Shown in pieces: positions 31,403 to 64,000 of a stretch of 64,000 nt of DNA. Each line of letters opens with the position of its first letter. The stretch's first letter is position 1. Source of the DNA: Siphonobacter aquaeclarae (GTDB lineage: Bacteria > Bacteroidota > Bacteroidia > Cytophagales > Spirosomataceae); the NCBI RefSeq assembly GCF_900103285.1, contig NZ_FNGS01000003.1:1-64000 (forward strand), read 5' to 3'. The notes beneath the pieces were generated by a model, which was not told the DNA's origin, ran no database searches, and saw only the letters and a program-made list of their open reading frames with translations. Both the position numbers and the translations under genes were made by a program.

Positions 31403-31978
31403 TCACCGGAAATAGCAGCATCCTTCCGGCGTCACACAGGCATCCATCGGGATGTCGTAACGGTCGACGTCATCAATGCGATCAGACGGGCCGAAAAACG
31501 AAAACCCGACCTTCTGTACATCCTTTCGGCATTTGGCCAGAAAGCGATCGTAAAAGCCCATTCCGTATCCGACCCGGTATCCGGATCGGTCAAATGCCAG
31601 CAGGGGAAGTAATACCAGGTCGATCCGCTCCTCCGCAATCATTTCCTCTGCCTCCGGTTCGGGAATGCCCCAGGCATTTTCCACAACCGGCGTATCCGGC
31701 GTCAGTGGAAAATGCCGCATCTCCCTGGTTTTCAGGTCCGACACAGAAGTAACCACCTGAATATGTGGATAACTCCCCCAAATCCGGTGGATAAGTGGCC
31801 AGTTATCCACTTCTTTCTGTTTCCTGATGGGTAAAAACACGTGGAGAACCTGGATATCCCGCAGAAAATCAGCCTCCTGGAAATGTTGAATTATCGACAG
31901 GCTGTGGATAACCGCTTCTTCCGGCAAAAGATTTTTCCGCTGTTCCCGGCCCTGTTTACGCAGTTCAGCCTTCGTCAT
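31403..31978 (-). CDS. 5-formyltetrahydrofolate cyclo-ligase
   Basis: This ygfA/MTHFS enzyme converts 5-formyl-THF to 5,10-methenyl-THF using ATP. The 191-residue protein has the N-terminal KAELRKQGREQRK, LLPLLAFDRSGYRVGYGMGFYDRFL (the ATP/folate motif GYGxGFYDR) and a normal length. It starts 3 bp after a methyltransferase gene. The reading frame holds an unusual cluster of DnaA-box 9-mers at 31764-31911. On its 3' side lies the 6S RNA candidate. Confidence 0.95.
   Translation of the reverse strand: MTKAELRKQGREQRKNLLPEEAVIHSLSIIQHFQEADFLRDIQVLHVFLPIRKQKEVDNWPLIHRIWGSYPHIQVVTSVSDLKTREMRHFPLTPDTPVVENAWGIPEPEAEEMIAEERIDLVLLPLLAFDRSGYRVGYGMGFYDRFLAKCRKDVQKVGFSFFGPSDRIDDVDRYDIPMDACVTPEGCCYFR
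31764..31911. promoter_or_regulatory. DnaA-box cluster inside the cyclo-ligase gene
   Basis: Perfect boxes TGTGGATAA at 31764-31772 and 31903-31911, GGTGGATAA at 31786-31794, TTATCCACT at 31803-31811 and TTATCGACA at 31891-31899. The first two of the row and 31903 face one way, 31803 and 31891 the other. They are read through as codons in the gene. Confidence 0.65.
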
Positions 31979-55402: not shown

Positions 55403-58400
55403 ATGAACGCCTCTCCCGTCGATTCTCTGCTCGTCCAGCTCGACGAGTACAAGCGGAAATACTATGCCAATCTTCTCCTGAAAGGAGTCATCTTTTCGGC
55501 GGCGGTAGTATTATCCGCATACCTGCTTTTCAATACACTGGAATATTTCGGTCATTTTGGAAAGACCTTCCGGACGCTGCTGTTTTTCGGCTTTCTGGGG
55601 GTCTTCCTGAGTTCGATGCTCTTCTGGGTCATCAAACCGTTGATATTCCTGTATGGACGGAAGAAACCGCTCTCGAATGAAGAGGCCGCCCGGCAGATCG
55701 GGCGGTTTTTTCCGGAAGTGGGCGACCGGCTGCTGAATACCCTTCAACTGGTCAGCCAGAGCCAGAGTGATCTAATTCAGGCATCCATCCGGCAGAAATC
55801 GCAGCAACTGGCAATCGTGAAGTTTACGGATGCGGTAAAGCTGGAGGAAAACCGGAAGCACCTGAAGTATGCGGCGGTGCCGGCCGTTGTTATCGCCGCT
55901 ATTCTCTTCGTTTTTCCTCAGTTTTTTACGAAGCCGACGACGCGCCTCGTTCAATTCCGGAATGAGTTCGCGGAGGAAGCCCCTTTTTCTTTTTTCCTGG
56001 AAAATAAGTCATTACAGGCCTTCCGCAACGAAGACCTGGTCGTGGAAATGACACTGAAGGGAAACGCAGTACCGGAGGCTGTATACCTCAACGTAGCCGG
56101 CCGGCGGTTTAAAATGGAGTCGTCGGATCTCCGGCATTACTCCTATACCTTCCGGAAACTGCAGCAGGATTTTGATTTTACCTTCGAAGCGGCAGGCTAT
56201 TTCTCGCCTTCCTATGACGTGGATATCGTTGCCCGGCCGAGCCTGACCGGTTTCGACGTATCCCTGCAGTATCCCTCCTACCTCAACAAACCTGCCGAGA
56301 CGCTTAAAAACACCGGAAACCTCACCGTGCCGGAGGGTACAGTGGTGGAATGGCAGTTTTCCGCAACGGAAACCGATGCCGTCAGCCTCTCCTTTTCCGG
56401 CAAACCGGAGCCCGCTGAAAAATCGATGCTCGGAGGTTTTCACCTGGAAAAGAAAGTGCGCACGTCAGGAGAATACCAGGTGTCGCTTCAAAATAAGTAT
56501 GCGTCCAACCTGGAGCCGGTCAGTTTCTTCCTGAACGTCATCCCGGATAAATACCCCGGTATCACGCTGGAACAGTACCGGGACTCGACGCTATACAACT
56601 ACCTGGTACTGGGCGGTAATATTTCCGATGACTACGGAATCTCCAATCTTCGGCTGTTCTACCGCATAATCCGCGAAAATGATACGCCGAAAAGCTATGC
56701 ATCGCTGGGTATCCCGTTCTCCAAAGGACAAACCATCCAGAGCTTCTATTACCAGTGGGCCACAGATTCGCTCAGACTGGCGCCGGGAGACAAAATCGAG
56801 TACTATGTCCAGGTGTGGGACAATGACGGCGTAAACGGCGCGAAATCGGCCAAAACGGGGCTGATGAACTACGCTGTTCCGTCGAAAAAAGTCATTGAGA
56901 AAGAAATCGAGAACGCCGTGGAGAAAACGGAGAACCAGCTCGACCGCTCTCTTTCCAAGGCACAACAGCTCAAAAAAGAACTGGCTGCACTCGAAGCCCG
57001 TCTCCGCAATAAGCGCGACCTCGATTACCAGGACAAAAAGCAGCTCGAAGAACTTATCAAAAAACGGGAGCAGTTGCAGGAAGAACTCCGCCAGTTGCAG
57101 GAGCAGAATATGTCGCTGACGCAGAAGCAGCAGCGGTTCAACGAGCAGCGACCGGAGTTGGCGCAGAAATTCGAGCAGCTGCAGAAGCTGATGGACGAGT
57201 TGTTGAAAAGCGATTCCGACAAGCTCTACGAACAGCTGAAGCAGATGCTCGAAAAGAATCAGGACGAGCGCCTGCTCGAAATGCTCGACCGTATGAAGGC
57301 AAAAGAGCGGAATACGGAGAAGGATCTCGACCGGGCTATGCAGTTGTTCAAACGTCTCCAGCGGGAGCAAAAGCTTGAAAAGTCGATCGACGAACTCAAA
57401 AAGCTCGCCGAAGAGCAGCAGAAACTCGCCGAGAAAACAGACCAGCAGAAAGACACCGCGCCGAAGGATACCAAAGATGCGAAGAAAAATGAAGCTGATT
57501 CATTGAAAAACGCTCAGAAAGACGCGAAAAAGAACGAGTCCGACTCCTTGAAAAACGACGGCAAAAACAACGAACAGAAGGACGGGAAAGACAACAAAGA
57601 CGGGAAGGATTCCAAAGACGGAAAAGAAAACAAGGACGGAAAGGACAGCAAGGACGACAACAAGGGCGAAGACAGCAAAGACCAGAAGGATTCAAACTCT
57701 CTGGAAAACGAGCAGCAAAAGTTGCAGGACGAGATGGAGGACATCAAAAAGAACCTCAACGACGTCGAAAACCTGAACAACGAGCTCAAGGACATGCAGG
57801 AGAAGGATATGGGCAAGAAAGAGCAGCAGGAAATCTCCGAGCAGCAGCAGCAGAGTCAGCAGGACATGAAGAGCGGCAAGAACCGCTCCTCTTCCCAGCG
57901 GCAGAAAAAAGCGGCGCAGCAGATGAAGCAACTCGCCCAGAAATTGTCAGACATGAAGCAGCAGGCGGAAATGGAAGAGAACGAGGAAAACATGGATGAC
58001 CTGCGGGATATTCTCGAAAACCTGGTTCGCCTCAGTTTCGATCAGGAGCGGCTGATGAAGGATTTCCGCGGCGTGCAACTGGCCGATCCCCGCTTTGTGA
58101 AACTGGCACAGGAGCAGATTAAGCTTCAGGACGACGCCCGGATTGTCGAAGACAGCCTTTACGCCCTGGCGAAGCGGGTACTGCAGATCCAGGCGTTCGT
58201 GACGCGGGAAGTCGGCGATATGAAGAAAAACATGGACGATGCTGCGCGGTTTATCCGCGAGCGGAAGCTGCCGATGGCCACTTCCAAGCAGCAGTTTGCG
58301 ATGACGAACATCAACAACCTGGCGCTGATGCTGTCGGACGTCTTGAAGCAGATGCAGGAAAACGCCATGAGTATGATGTCGGCGTCTCAAAAAGGCAAGA

Positions 58401-58933: not shown

Positions 58934-58949
58934 TTATCCACGTGAAACA
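58934..58949. promoter_or_regulatory. parS-like site overlapping a DnaA box
   Basis: The 16-mer TTATCCACGTGAAACA matches the parS consensus TGTTTCACGTGAAACA at 13 of 16 positions, with a perfect right half. The DnaA box TTATCCACG is its left part. Confidence 0.6.
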
Positions 58950-58979
58950 AAAGCCGGGGCATCGCTCCGGCTTTTTTAT
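58950..58979 (+). terminator. Terminator of the DUF4175 gene
   Basis: Stem AGCCGGGGC/GCTCCGGCT (one G-T pair), loop ATC, followed by six T. Confidence 0.85.
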
Positions 58980-59027
58980 TTTATGCTAGTAAATATCTAA
59001 TAATCAGCCTATTACAACTCAAATAAT
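58980..59027. other. AT-rich unwinding element candidate
   Basis: About 48 bp of mostly A and T (TTATGCTAGTAAATATC, CTAATAATC, CTCAAATAA) directly left of the DnaA-box array. It is the probable DNA unwinding element. Confidence 0.6.
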
Positions 59028-59095
59028 TTATCCACGCGTTATCCACTTTTCTATCAACACGGTTATCCTCCGGGTTATGCACAAAGTTATCCACA
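59028..59095 (+). other. Probable oriC: DnaA boxes on a 12-bp period
   Basis: Boxes in the same orientation start at 59028 (TTATCCACG), 59039 (TTATCCACT), 59051 (CTATCAACA, 7 of 9), 59063 (TTATCCTCC), 59075 (TTATGCACA) and 59087 (TTATCCACA, perfect). Steps are 11, 12, 12, 12, 12 bp. A further box is at 58934. With the AT-rich element and three parS-like sites, and beside ybeY-mnmG (gidA, a usual origin neighbour), this is a strong origin candidate. Confidence 0.85.
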
Positions 59096-59130: not shown

Positions 59131-59138
59131 TATCTTTG
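59131..59138 (+). promoter_or_regulatory. ybeY promoter -7 element
   Basis: TATCTTTG matches TAnnTTTG 21 bp before the ATG. No good -33 TTG box at the ideal distance; DnaA may act nearby. Confidence 0.6.
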
Positions 59139-59580: not shown

Positions 59581-59596
59581 TGTTCCACGTGAAACC
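59581..59596. promoter_or_regulatory. parS-like site, left of pair
   Basis: The 16-mer TGTTCCACGTGAAACC matches the consensus at 14 of 16 positions. Confidence 0.65.
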
Positions 59597-59617: not shown

Positions 59618-59633
59618 CGTTTCACGTGAAACA
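59618..59633. promoter_or_regulatory. parS-like site, right of pair
   Basis: The 16-mer CGTTTCACGTGAAACA matches the parS consensus TGTTTCACGTGAAACA at 15 of 16 positions. Two parS-like sites lie 37 bp apart between ybeY and mnmG. Confidence 0.75.
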
Positions 59634-59717: not shown

Positions 59718-61580
59718 ATGTTCAGAGAATACGATGTTATAGTGGTAGGTGCCGGGCACGCCGGTTGTGAAGCGGCACATGCTGCGGCCACGATGGGTTC
59801 CCGCGTTTTGCTGATCACCATGAATATGCAGACCATCGCACAGATGTCCTGCAACCCCGCTATGGGAGGCGTCGCGAAGGGGCAGATCGTCCGCGAGGTC
59901 GACGCGCTCGGCGGCATGTCCGGTATCATTTCGGACAAGACCATGATCCAGTTCCGGATGCTGAACCGCTCGAAAGGACCGGCAATGTGGTCGCCCCGGT
60001 GCCAGTCAGACCGTGTTCGGTTTGCTGAAGAATGGCGGCTTGCATTGGAACAAAATCTCAACGTCGACTTCTGGCAGGAGATGGTTTCGGGACTTTTGGT
60101 GGAAGAAGGGAAGGCAGTCGGCGTCGTTACCCAACTTGGCATTGAAATTCGTGCGAAGGCCGTCGTATTGACCAACGGTACCTTTCTCAACGGACTTATT
60201 CACATCGGAGAAAAGCAGTTTGGCGGCGGGCGAACCGCGGAGCGGGCGGCGACGGGAATCACCGAGCAACTCGTTCGATTGGGTTTTGAAGCCGGCCGGA
60301 TGAAGACCGGGACGCCACCGCGGGTAGACGCGCGCAGCCTGGATTTCTCCAAAATGGAAGAGCAGAAAGGGGATGAGCAACCAGGAAAATTCTCCTACCT
60401 CGACACCCCCGTTCTGGCCGAACAACGCAGCTGCTGGATTACCTATACCAACGAAGAAGTCCATAGTATTCTCCGTACCGGGTTCGATAAATCACCCATG
60501 TTTGCGGGTCGTATCAAAGGGCTTGGGCCCCGCTACTGCCCGTCTGTGGAAGATAAAATCAACCGTTTCGCAGACAAAGACCGGCACCAGATCTTCGTCG
60601 AGCCCGAGGGTTGGAATACCGTGGAAGTCTATGTAAACGGGTTCTCCACCTCACTTCCGGAAGATGTGCAATACGAAGCGCTCCGACGCATACCCGGCTT
60701 TGAAAATGTTCGGATGTTCCGTCCAGGCTATGCGATTGAGTATGACTTCTTCCCTCCTACACAGCTAAAATCAACCCTCGAAACCAAGCTGGTCGACAAC
60801 CTCTTCTTTGCAGGGCAGATCAACGGAACGACGGGCTACGAAGAAGCTGCCTGCCAGGGACTCATGGCCGGTATCAACGCGCATAACAATGCGCATGAAA
60901 AAGCTCCCTTTGTTCTCCATCGTTCGGAAGCATATATCGGAGTTTTGGTCGATGACCTCATTAACAAAGGGACCGAAGAACCCTACCGGATGTTCACCTC
61001 ACGGGCGGAGTACCGAACCCTCCTCCGCCAGGACAATGCCGACCTGCGTCTTACCGAGAAAGCCTATGCCCTCGGGCTGGCGTCTCAGGAGCGATACGAT
61101 CGCGTTGTCCGGAAGAAGGAACAAACAGCAGAATTGGTTGGCCTGCTGAAGAAACACAAAGTCGCCCCTGAAGAAGTCAACCCTTCACTGGAAAATCAGC
61201 AATCTGCGCAACTCCGGGAAAAGACTACGCTTTATCACCTGCTTAAGCGGCCGGAGCTTGACATGCCGAAACTTCGGGAACTGAGTCCTTCTGTTGCAGA
61301 AGCCCTCGCTTCGTTTACCGACGAGATTCAGGAGCAGGCGGAGATCAATGTGAAGTACGAAGACTACATGGAGCGGGAAAGATTGCAGGTTGAGAAGCTG
61401 GAACGGCTCGAGAATCTTTCCATCAACCCTGGTTTTGATTACGAGAAACTGACGGCTCTTTCGAAAGAAAGTCGCCAGAAACTCAGCCGAATACGTCCCG
61501 AAACACTCGGTCAGGCGTCCCGAATCAGCGGCGTTTCACCGTCTGACATTTCGATATTGATGGTCCACCTTGGCCGTTGA
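59718..61580 (+). CDS. mnmG: tRNA uridine 5-carboxymethylaminomethyl modification enzyme MnmG (GidA)
   Basis: MnmG with MnmE forms cmnm5U34 on tRNAs. The 620-residue FAD protein has [60 protein letters not shown] and the C-terminal TRSEYRT-like [17 protein letters not shown]. mnmG/gidA neighbours the origin in many bacteria. Confidence 0.97.
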
Positions 61581-61703: not shown

Positions 61704-62594
61704 ATGAAAATGGAAACCTTATGTACCTGCCCGGTTTGTCAGAGCAGCAGGTTGTCTCCCTTCCTGACGTGCAAAGACTATACCGTAAGCCAGGAAGAAT
61801 TTACTCTGGTCCGCTGTGATACCTGCGGGTTCGTGTTTACCAACCCCCGCCCTACAGAAGCGGAAATCGGAAGGTACTACCAGTCGACCGACTACATCTC
61901 CCACAGCAATACCAAAAGAGGTCTCGTTTCCCAGGTATACCACGCCGTTCGAAGAATTACCCTGAAGAATAAACTGACCCTGCTCAATCGTCTCGTTCCA
62001 GGCAAAGGCCGGTTGCTCGACGTTGGCTGCGGTACCGGCATGTTCCTCTCCGTTTGCCAGGAGGACGGCTGGAAAGTATCCGGTATAGAACCGGATTCAG
62101 GCGCTCGGAAGCTGGCCGAAGAGCAGATTACCCAGCCCGTCAGTCCGGAGATACTCGGGAGTTATGCGGGGGAAACCTTTCAGGCCATTACCCTCTGGCA
62201 CGTCCTCGAACACATTCACCGGCTGGAAGAAACCCTGGCCTGGCTCAACGAGCGACTGGCCGCTGACGGCCGGCTGATCATCGCTGTCCCTAATCTTGAG
62301 TCGTATGATGCCTCACGGTATGGAGCGCAATGGGCAGCGTATGACGTACCGCGACACCTCTACCATTTTGCTCCGAATACCCTTAAACCGCTGATGGGAC
62401 AGTATGGATTTGTGCTGGAGGAAACCCTTCCGATGCCATTTGATTCATTCTATGTCTCCATGCTCAGCACACGGTACCGGGATGGAAAAACCCGCTACCT
62501 GGAGGCTATCCGGGAGGGACTCAAGTCCAATAGCCTCGGTAAAGGCGAGCGCCCCAACTACTCCAGTCTGATCTACGTATTCAAAAAAAGGTAA
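61704..62594 (+). CDS. SAM-dependent methyltransferase with N-terminal zinc ribbon
   Basis: A 296-residue protein with an N-terminal zinc-ribbon (CTCPVCQSSR, CDTCGFVFTNPRPTEAE) followed by a class I methyltransferase domain (GRLLDVGCGTGMFLSVCQEDGWKVSGIEP). This ribbon-plus-UbiG-like arrangement occurs in enzymes that modify cell-surface sugars. It is 5 bp before a lipoprotein gene, suggesting an operon. Confidence 0.9.
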   Translation: MKMETLCTCPVCQSSRLSPFLTCKDYTVSQEEFTLVRCDTCGFVFTNPRPTEAEIGRYYQSTDYISHSNTKRGLVSQVYHAVRRITLKNKLTLLNRLVPGKGRLLDVGCGTGMFLSVCQEDGWKVSGIEPDSGARKLAEEQITQPVSPEILGSYAGETFQAITLWHVLEHIHRLEETLAWLNERLAADGRLIIAVPNLESYDASRYGAQWAAYDVPRHLYHFAPNTLKPLMGQYGFVLEETLPMPFDSFYVSMLSTRYRDGKTRYLEAIREGLKSNSLGKGERPNYSSLIYVFKKR

Positions 62595-62599
62595 CCGTC

Positions 62600-64000
62600 A
62601 TGCGGCATTTACTCTGGCTTTCCCTGGTCCTGCTTGTGGCAGGTTGCGCCCAGCAAAGCTCCCCTACCGGCGGCCCGAAAGACCTTACGCCTCCCCAGCT
62701 GATCCGCCAGACACCGGCCAATCAGACGCTTAATTTCACGGGAAAAACAGTCGAACTGGAATTCGATGAATACGTCAGCGTCGATAACCTGATGCAGCAA
62801 TTGCTGATCACGCCGGCGATTGAAGGGACCTATGATTTCAAAACGCAGCCTAAAGGGGTACGCATTACCTTCGACCAACCATTCCGTCCGAATACCACGT
62901 ACTCCCTCAATTTCCGGAATGCATTCAAGGACGTTACGGAGCGGAATCCGGCACGAAACGTGAAGATCGTTTTTAGTACCGGGAAGAGCCTGGACTCTCT
63001 CCGGATGTCCGGAAACGTCCGGGATATGATGACTGATAAGCCTGCTTTTGATGCGCTCGTTGGCCTCTACCAAATCAGCGATACCCTCAAGTTTTCCAAG
63101 AACAAACCCTACTACCTCACCAAGACTGATAGCTCGGGAAACTTTACGCTCGAGAATCTGGCGCCCGGGCAGTACCGTCTGGCTGCGCTGCAGGACGTCA
63201 ACAATAACCTGCTTTTCAATACCGAGAAAGAAAAAATAGCCTTCCATCCGAATCCGATAACGCTGCCCGGATTCACCGACACGCCTACCCTGAAGCTTGT
63301 CGCCGCGGATATGGCGCCCCAGCGCCAGCCTAAGTCCATGGTGACTTCCAAACAGTATACTCTCGCGTATCCGAGAGGTATTCAGGATGTACAGGTATCG
63401 TTCTGGAAACGGGAAGACAGCCTCACGTATGCGCAGGTAGACGACAAGCAACTGCGCTTCTATAACCGGGAAGCCCGGACGGATACCATCCGCGCGCGGA
63501 TCACCGTCACCGATTCACTCAATAGGACGTTTTCCCACGATCAGAAAATCCGATTCAAAGACCGGCCGAAAAAAGGGAACGATATCGTCGAAGCGATGGA
63601 GACGAAAGTACTCCCGAAAAGCAGTGACGACATGGAGCGGAATTTTCATTATCAGCTCCGCTTCTCCAAGCCCATCACAAGGTTTGCTCCGGAGAATATC
63701 CTGCTTCAGGAAGACACCATCCGGAACATAAAGCTGACCGATAAAGACTGGAAATGGAACCGGTATAAGACCGAGCTGCTGATCGATAAGCCCATTGAAT
63801 TCCGCCGGGACGTGCGGGTGATTATGCCAAAGGGAACCTTCATTTCGATCGAAGGAGATACCGCCCAGGCCGTACGGGCATTACACGCCCTCCGCGATCC
63901 GGAGAAATACGGTACCATCAGCGGGGAAGTGAAGAACGTGCACTCTGACTTTTTTGTAGAGCTGATCGGCGCGGCCGATTATAAAGTCGTCGCGACGATC
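62600..64000 (+). CDS. Ig-like (Big_5) domain lipoprotein, partial
   Basis: Open from ATG 62600 to the right edge (467 codons, no stop). Signal peptide with lipobox LLVAGCAQQSS, followed by the SPTGGPKDLTPPQL signature, then an SbsA-type Ig domain (VELEFDEYVSVDNLMQQLLI) and Ig-like folds to the end of the window. This GGPKD family is common in Bacteroidota and is of unknown role. The methyltransferase upstream is probably cotranscribed. The C-terminal end is missing. Confidence 0.85.
   Translation, partial: MRHLLWLSLVLLVAGCAQQSSPTGGPKDLTPPQLIRQTPANQTLNFTGKTVELEFDEYVSVDNLMQQLLITPAIEGTYDFKTQPKGVRITFDQPFRPNTTYSLNFRNAFKDVTERNPARNVKIVFSTGKSLDSLRMSGNVRDMMTDKPAFDALVGLYQISDTLKFSKNKPYYLTKTDSSGNFTLENLAPGQYRLAALQDVNNNLLFNTEKEKIAFHPNPITLPGFTDTPTLKLVAADMAPQRQPKSMVTSKQYTLAYPRGIQDVQVSFWKREDSLTYAQVDDKQLRFYNREARTDTIRARITVTDSLNRTFSHDQKIRFKDRPKKGNDIVEAMETKVLPKSSDDMERNFHYQLRFSKPITRFAPENILLQEDTIRNIKLTDKDWKWNRYKTELLIDKPIEFRRDVRVIMPKGTFISIEGDTAQAVRALHALRDPEKYGTISGEVKNVHSDFFVELIGAADYKVVATI

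Follow-up and report, generated by a model that had tools for sequence, protein, structure and literature searches.

A DnaA-box array beside ybeY-mnmG in Siphonobacter: probably an accessory cluster near the replication origin rather than its core

DnaA-box clusters have been described both at replication origins and elsewhere on the chromosome, in several arrangements. In Escherichia coli, DnaA prefers box pairs separated by 2- or 3-bp gaps, which correspond to 11- and 12-bp steps, and some of these pairs lie upstream of genes (PMC11317965). For Bacillus subtilis, one passage of a review reports that a strain lacking six DnaA-box clusters initiates early; elsewhere, the same review states that no clusters playing a significant part were identified in this species (PMC5295017). 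The bipartite B. subtilis origin, as that review describes it, has two box clusters separated by dnaA. Closely spaced boxes also characterize the Thermotoga maritima oriC, in which same-strand pairs are reported to work best 2 bp apart and the boxes flank the unwinding element (PMC10316083). Within the Bacteroidota, the program Ori-Finder put the Mariniflexile oriC beside mnmG, according to the text of that report; its figure legend, in conflict with this, marks mnmG as ter (PMC11278836). Among the literature matches listed, none presents, by title or abstract, an experimental origin map for the Cytophagales.

The 6.19-Mb genome of Siphonobacter aquaeclarae (Cytophagales; 19 contigs) carries a DnaA-box array that resembles each of these systems in part. 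The window, the whole 64,000-base stretch that was analyzed, comprises bases 1–64000 of contig C18 (789,697 bases); positions given without a contig are those of the window. A preliminary description had proposed the array, near the right end of the window, as the probable replication origin. Analysis of related genomes argues for the origin neighborhood but against the array as the origin: that description was correct to about 5 kb in its region, and probably misplaced the origin core. We put at roughly 60% the probability that the array is instead an accessory, origin-proximal DnaA-binding cluster of Siphonobacter, serving DnaA titration, promoter control, or both. The elements concerned are the following, in order along the contig.

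58934–58949, + strand: lone DnaA-box-like 9-mer TTATCCACG, overlapping a weak parS-like 16-mer with 3 mismatches (scans).
58949–58986, + strand: hairpin (arms 58949–58960 and 58964–58975) followed by a T-rich run, the terminator-like end of the DUF4175 gene (sequence).
58980–59027, no strand assigned: AT-rich stretch, 77% A+T, 5′ of the array (composition).
59028–59095, + strand: array of six DnaA-box-like 9-mers in 11- or 12-bp steps, of TTATCCACA type and directed at ybeY (sequence scan).
Array boxes 1–3, + strand: 59028 TTATCCACG, 59039 TTATCCACT, 59051 CTATCAACA (9-mer scan).
Array boxes 4–6, + strand: 59063 TTATCCTCC, 59075 TTATGCACA, 59087 TTATCCACA (9-mer scan).
59131–59138, + strand: TATCTTTG, matching the Bacteroidetes −7 promoter element TANNTTTG (consensus as given in PMC6847099).
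59159–59578, + strand: ybeY, endoribonuclease YbeY, PF02130 (domain match).
59581–59596, + strand: parS-like 16-mer with 2 mismatches, between ybeY and mnmG (scan against TGTTTCACGTGAAACA).
59618–59633, + strand: parS-like 16-mer with 1 mismatch, between ybeY and mnmG (scan against TGTTTCACGTGAAACA).
59718–61580, + strand: mnmG (gidA), PF01134 (domain match).
61704–62594, + strand: SAM methyltransferase-like gene, part of the shared origin block (domain match and gene-order comparison).
62600–64000, + strand: Ig-like-domain lipoprotein gene, extending to C18:64201 (domain match and gene-order comparison).
C18:64202–64741 (L112:6203–6742): 540-bp gap between the lipoprotein and TPR genes, starting 202 bases beyond the window; candidate oriC core.
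C18:64742 onward, past the window: TPR gene, following the Ig–TPR gap (gene-order comparison).

Like the E. coli double boxes upstream of purH, polA, and mutH/DARS2, the array has 2- or 3-bp gaps and lies upstream of a gene and probably outside oriC (PMC11317965); unlike those pairs, it has up to six boxes in a row. The DnaA-box clusters of B. subtilis likewise lie outside oriC (PMC5295017), whereas the predicted Siphonobacter clusters are a 12-bp tandem array at a promoter-like element and an intragenic one. The locus resembles the bipartite B. subtilis origin in that a single origin region contains two DnaA-box clusters (PMC5295017); it differs in that about 5 kb with four genes separates them, and in that one Siphonobacter cluster is restricted to the genus. 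The boxes are closely spaced, as in T. maritima (PMC10316083), but no unwinding element was recognized at the array. The link to mnmG recalls Mariniflexile, which belongs to another lineage and whose origin is a prediction (PMC11278836).

All six array boxes are on the + strand, with steps of 11, 12, 12, 12, and 12 bp and, in order, 1, 1, 2, 2, 1, and 0 mismatches to TTATCCACA. Taken from 59039, the five boxes that follow one another in 12-bp steps reach a score of 39 out of 45. The array's own overlapping registers excepted, no five-box chain with a step of 10–14 bp in 464 kb of the same genome does better than 27, and 40 Mb of random sequence matched to the region in base composition yields at most 30. 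The preliminary description was exact on the starts and steps of the boxes, and the six are very probably DnaA boxes. Its lone box at 58934 and the AT-rich element ahead of the array are also present as it had described them. Neither the hybrid of box and parS-like site at 58934 (five other Siphonobacter sequences aligned) nor the sequence of the AT-rich stretch is conserved within the genus. The 12-bp spacing, proposed as the mark of a special ordered filament, calls for no such explanation, since the 2- and 3-bp gaps that E. coli DnaA is reported to prefer (PMC11317965) make steps of 11 and 12 bp ordinary.

The array is, on comparison, a Siphonobacter feature. A 12-bp-step register occurs upstream of ybeY in all six Siphonobacter genomes, with one to six recognizable boxes: six in the source genome, and in G003 one good box with degenerate ones, so the constraint is modest. 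When whole genomes were searched for three boxes in 12-bp steps, the best-matching site was the one upstream of ybeY in four of the five other Siphonobacter genomes (G001, G002, G004, and G005); in G003, and in G006 from another genus of the same family, it was not. Outside Siphonobacter, the 250 bp upstream of ybeY hold one box in two of 84 loci and more than one in none. The 3-bp linkers differ between Siphonobacter genomes, which, with the array's constant place and step in all six, rules out a fresh tandem duplication as its source.

Just 3′ of the array lies a promoter-like element. The TANNTTTG consensus is that reported for the Bacteroidetes −7 element (PMC6847099), and each of the six Siphonobacter genomes has an element of this type ahead of ybeY (−28 to −30), with the variant TACCTTTG at that position in G001 and G004. 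In the source genome the element begins 35 bp past the last array box; among Siphonobacter genomes the distance from the last box, start to start, varies from 44 to 59 bp. The array's position is thus one that a regulator of ybeY-mnmG would be expected to occupy.

These arrangements suggest how an accessory cluster might work. DnaA would fill the array boxes cooperatively and head to tail, an arrangement that the 3-bp gaps fit, beside the promoter of the ybeY-mnmG operon. When oriC, presumably in the Ig–TPR gap about 5 kb away, fires, the array would be duplicated within seconds. Its proximity to oriC means that it would double right after initiation, and the doubled array could draw off newly available DnaA and so lower the free DnaA, an effect also proposed for the extra-origin clusters of B. 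subtilis in the review that elsewhere questions their importance (PMC5295017); it might also, or instead, switch ybeY-mnmG transcription along with initiation. We infer from the boxes and their setting that DnaA binds here, and that titration, promoter control, and initiation timing follow from it.

Where, then, does the core lie? Many of the compared loci share the gene order ybeY, mnmG, (methyltransferase), Ig-like lipoprotein, gap, TPR; the succession of ybeY and mnmG after the array had already been noted and agrees with the domain matches. Boxes were counted at no more than one mismatch to TTATCCACA, after removal of three duplicate genomes (L032–L034 being counted only as G002, G005, and G003); loci without a matched TPR gene were scanned over a fixed 550 bp beyond the lipoprotein match. 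Outside Siphonobacter, 55 loci were testable, and the gap has at least three boxes in 42 of them and at least five in 38, with a mean of 13.8 per kb. The 13 low-box loci are 12 from Pontibacter, all scanned over the fixed 550-bp stretch, and L123 from G045. Among 30 loci fetched by the TPR protein, six of them from Siphonobacter, the 650 bp before the TPR gene contain at least three boxes in 27, a count in which one stretch is off by 24 bp and one locus is incomplete, with an effect confined to those rows; of the three loci below three boxes, one is incomplete. The gaps of the six Siphonobacter genomes hold four to ten good boxes together with several other conserved blocks. The source genome's own gap, with four boxes, is the poorest of the six; it includes a 12-bp-step box pair at C18:64337. 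Among boxes with at most one mismatch, the commonest same-strand spacings across 61 gaps are 12, 20, and 21 bp.

The 12 Pontibacter loci carry a perfect parS 16-mer between ybeY and mnmG but have zero to two TTATCCACA-type boxes in their 550 bp, and they may differ in box sequence or in origin site.

Skew was taken from C18:1–184000 in full plus 14 spaced 20-kb stretches further along, and from 20 spaced 20-kb stretches in each of five relatives (G040, G008, G006, G025, and G030); plain GC skew was used, third-codon-position skew being noisier. In the source genome, plain skew is negative in the window's four 16-kb parts and positive in 18 of 20 stretches to the right, with the change of sign between the 48–64 kb and 64–84 kb samples. 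The G−C walk over C18:1–184000 is lowest at 64703 (−1071), inside the Ig–TPR gap, and stands at −945 at 59028, with a resolution coarser than 5 kb in either direction. The preliminary description had expected the minimum at the array itself; the minimum does fall in this region, but the lowest point of the walk is 5.6 kb off.

Sampled minima in the five relatives adjoin the same gene block or lie within about one sampling step of it. In G040 and G008 the sampled skew changes sign to the left of the block, at distances of up to about 0.48 and 0.45 Mb (sampling steps of 0.45 and 0.33 Mb, respectively); G006 has its local minimum in a sample 70 kb to the block's right, amid small mixed signs. In two relatives the ends of the block lie far apart: ybeY and TPR are separated by 278 kb in G030, and by 1.67 Mb, the shorter way round, in G025. 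For G030, where 18 of the 20 stretches lie between 2.2 and 3.2 Mb, sampled skew is −0.011 at 2.74 Mb and +0.039 at 2.78 Mb; TPR is at 2.786 Mb and ybeY at 2.508 Mb. Exceptions are slightly positive samples on the left, at 2.38 and 2.50 Mb, and a negative one on the right, at 2.88 Mb. For G025, cumulative sampled skew, irregular through a positive excursion at 1.6–1.9 Mb, is lowest at 4.06 Mb, with TPR at 4.16 Mb and ybeY at 0.45 Mb. Short-range walks over the 16- to 20-kb loci of eight relatives, five of them Siphonobacter, behave otherwise: each has its lowest point at the ybeY-side end or close to it (positions 52, 2958, 2, 46, 2, 1009, 1, and 1), never in the gap. Gene-level composition may dominate these short walks.

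Given the conservation of boxes in relatives and the sampled skew minima by TPR in G025 and G030, the shared oriC core, and with it the unwinding that we infer, is most likely to lie in the Ig–TPR gap, about 5 kb to the right of the array. The same evidence, a box cluster shared by relatives and skew minima at the TPR side and not at ybeY, speaks against the earlier equation of array and origin. If the core is indeed in the gap, the array would count as an origin-proximal DnaA-box cluster.

The parS-like sites fit this neighborhood. The parS consensus was taken as TGTTTCACGTGAAACA, against which the window contains three 16-mers, at 58934, 59581, and 59618, with 3, 2, and 1 mismatches (0.27 expected), in agreement with the 13, 14, and 15 matches of 16 first reported. 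The 59618 site is the best match in the whole genome, and 59581 is among three sites with 2 mismatches; the 58934 site was set aside, having 3 mismatches and lacking conservation. A parS-like site with at most 2 mismatches occupies the ybeY-mnmG gap in 42 of the 63 loci where the two genes adjoin, Siphonobacter included. The sole ParB-domain match of the genome is parB, at C18:761338. As consensus matches near the origin region of a genome with parB, 59581 and 59618 are candidate ParB sites. Together, the skew sign change, the walk minimum, the relatives' sampled minima, and the parS-like sites beside mnmG indicate that the window neighborhood is, broadly, the chromosome's origin region.

The dnaA gene lies on a different contig (C11:146513). 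A dnaA-linked box cluster elsewhere had been named in advance as a finding that would count against an origin here; in the 3.2 kb around the gene there is none, just a single box within dnaA, and a dnaA-linked origin was rejected on that ground.

A second genus-specific cluster lies further left in the window.

31403–31978, − strand: 5-formyl-THF cyclo-ligase gene (domain match).
31764–31911, − strand: second genus-specific DnaA-box cluster; boxes 31764, 31786, and 31903 recur in six Siphonobacter genomes.

Six boxes with at most one mismatch lie at 31677–31911, inside the gene. Three on the gene strand, spaced 117 and 22 bp apart, recur with no more than one mismatch in all six Siphonobacter genomes; their positions in the gene are identical in five, and in G002, where the match to the gene is split in two, the first box is offset by one base. 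The other five cyclo-ligase proteins are 51–55% identical to that of the source genome. None of 24 loci from other genera has boxes at the three places, as far as the loci cover them (three cover the gene only partly), and three of the 24 have one box elsewhere in the gene. Codon usage was compared in five of the six genomes, with G002 omitted for its split match. Of 73 identical residues with a choice of codon, 15 keep the identical codon: six of the seven in boxes versus nine of the 66 elsewhere (Fisher p = 0.00018). This concentration in the boxes suggests that selection acts on the DNA itself. Taken with the array, the cluster at 31.7 kb also suggests that several such clusters near the origin form a set in Siphonobacter.

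How else might the array be read? That the array and its AT-rich stretch form the origin core in S. aquaeclarae would accord with the skew sign change, with the nearby AT-rich element and parS-like sites, and with the short-range walks; moreover, the 250 bp upstream of ybeY contain five boxes with at most one mismatch, 58934 included, versus four in the genome's own gap. However, relatives keep their boxes in the Ig–TPR gap, and the sampled skew minimum of G025 and G030 is there and not at ybeY. The AT-rich stretch is also on the wrong side: it lies 5′ of TTATCCACA, whereas in the E. coli oriC the AT-rich unwinding region is on the 3′ side of the box. A simplified form of the published DnaA-trio rule, applied to array and gap, gave weak box-plus-trio matches that overlap the array itself. 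The rule found none in the source genome's Ig–TPR gap, so it does not discriminate between the sites in this genome; in some relatives, such as G030, the sequence immediately ahead of the TPR gene has a box and then CTA-like triplets. On balance, the array is quite improbable as the core. A bipartite origin, in which the array and the Ig–TPR gap are two halves and DnaA bound to both loops out the mnmG block, seems unlikely. Both clusters are present in six of six Siphonobacter genomes, and B. subtilis offers a precedent (PMC5295017), but there a single gene, as described, separates clusters that here are 5 kb and four genes apart, and the array is nearly lost in G003 and absent outside the genus, apart from the single boxes in two of 84 loci.

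A purely transcriptional role, with DnaA regulating the ybeY-mnmG promoter and taking no part in initiation there, overlaps the accessory reading, which leaves both roles open; by itself it is a tentative proposal. The array is directly upstream of the conserved −7 element, and E. coli DnaA is reported to bind such box pairs upstream of genes (PMC11317965); yet the distance to the element is not constant, and a coding gene rather than a promoter holds the second genus-specific cluster, suggesting that selection also acts on titration or timing. Somewhat more speculative is the extension that dispersed clusters over about 33 kb (the 12-bp promoter array, the intragenic folate-gene cluster, and oriC) jointly control Siphonobacter initiation by looping or titrating DnaA; selection on the DNA would then maintain the folate-gene cluster, and the genus would have acquired the set while oriC stayed put. 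Chance or decaying sequence without function is very improbable: box number and quality do differ between species, but the array's score is far outside the controls, and its place and step are the same in six of six genomes with differing 3-bp linkers. Against the accessory cluster itself stand the larger number of good boxes in the array region than in the genome's own gap, the relatives' short walks, the weak array of G003, the variable distance to the −7 element, the box-poor Pontibacter loci, and the doubt that the B. subtilis review casts on such clusters (PMC5295017).

The comparison points to an oriC between the Ig-like lipoprotein and TPR genes in many Cytophagales, with parS-like sites in the same block. 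Genus-specific DnaA-box clusters around such a stable core would make the evolution of initiation control testable. They also urge caution, because the most regular box array of a window need not be its origin.

Two smaller observations concern the surroundings. In the DUF4175 protein encoded ahead of the array, a long segment of low complexity is rich in Lys, Asp, and Gln (window 57400–58000); the AT skew is strongly raised over it. Three other Siphonobacter genomes have weaker 12-bp-step box pairs about 18–22 kb right of ybeY (G001:C8:73821, G004:C84:26814, and G003:C8:92751), which are perhaps a further origin-proximal cluster.
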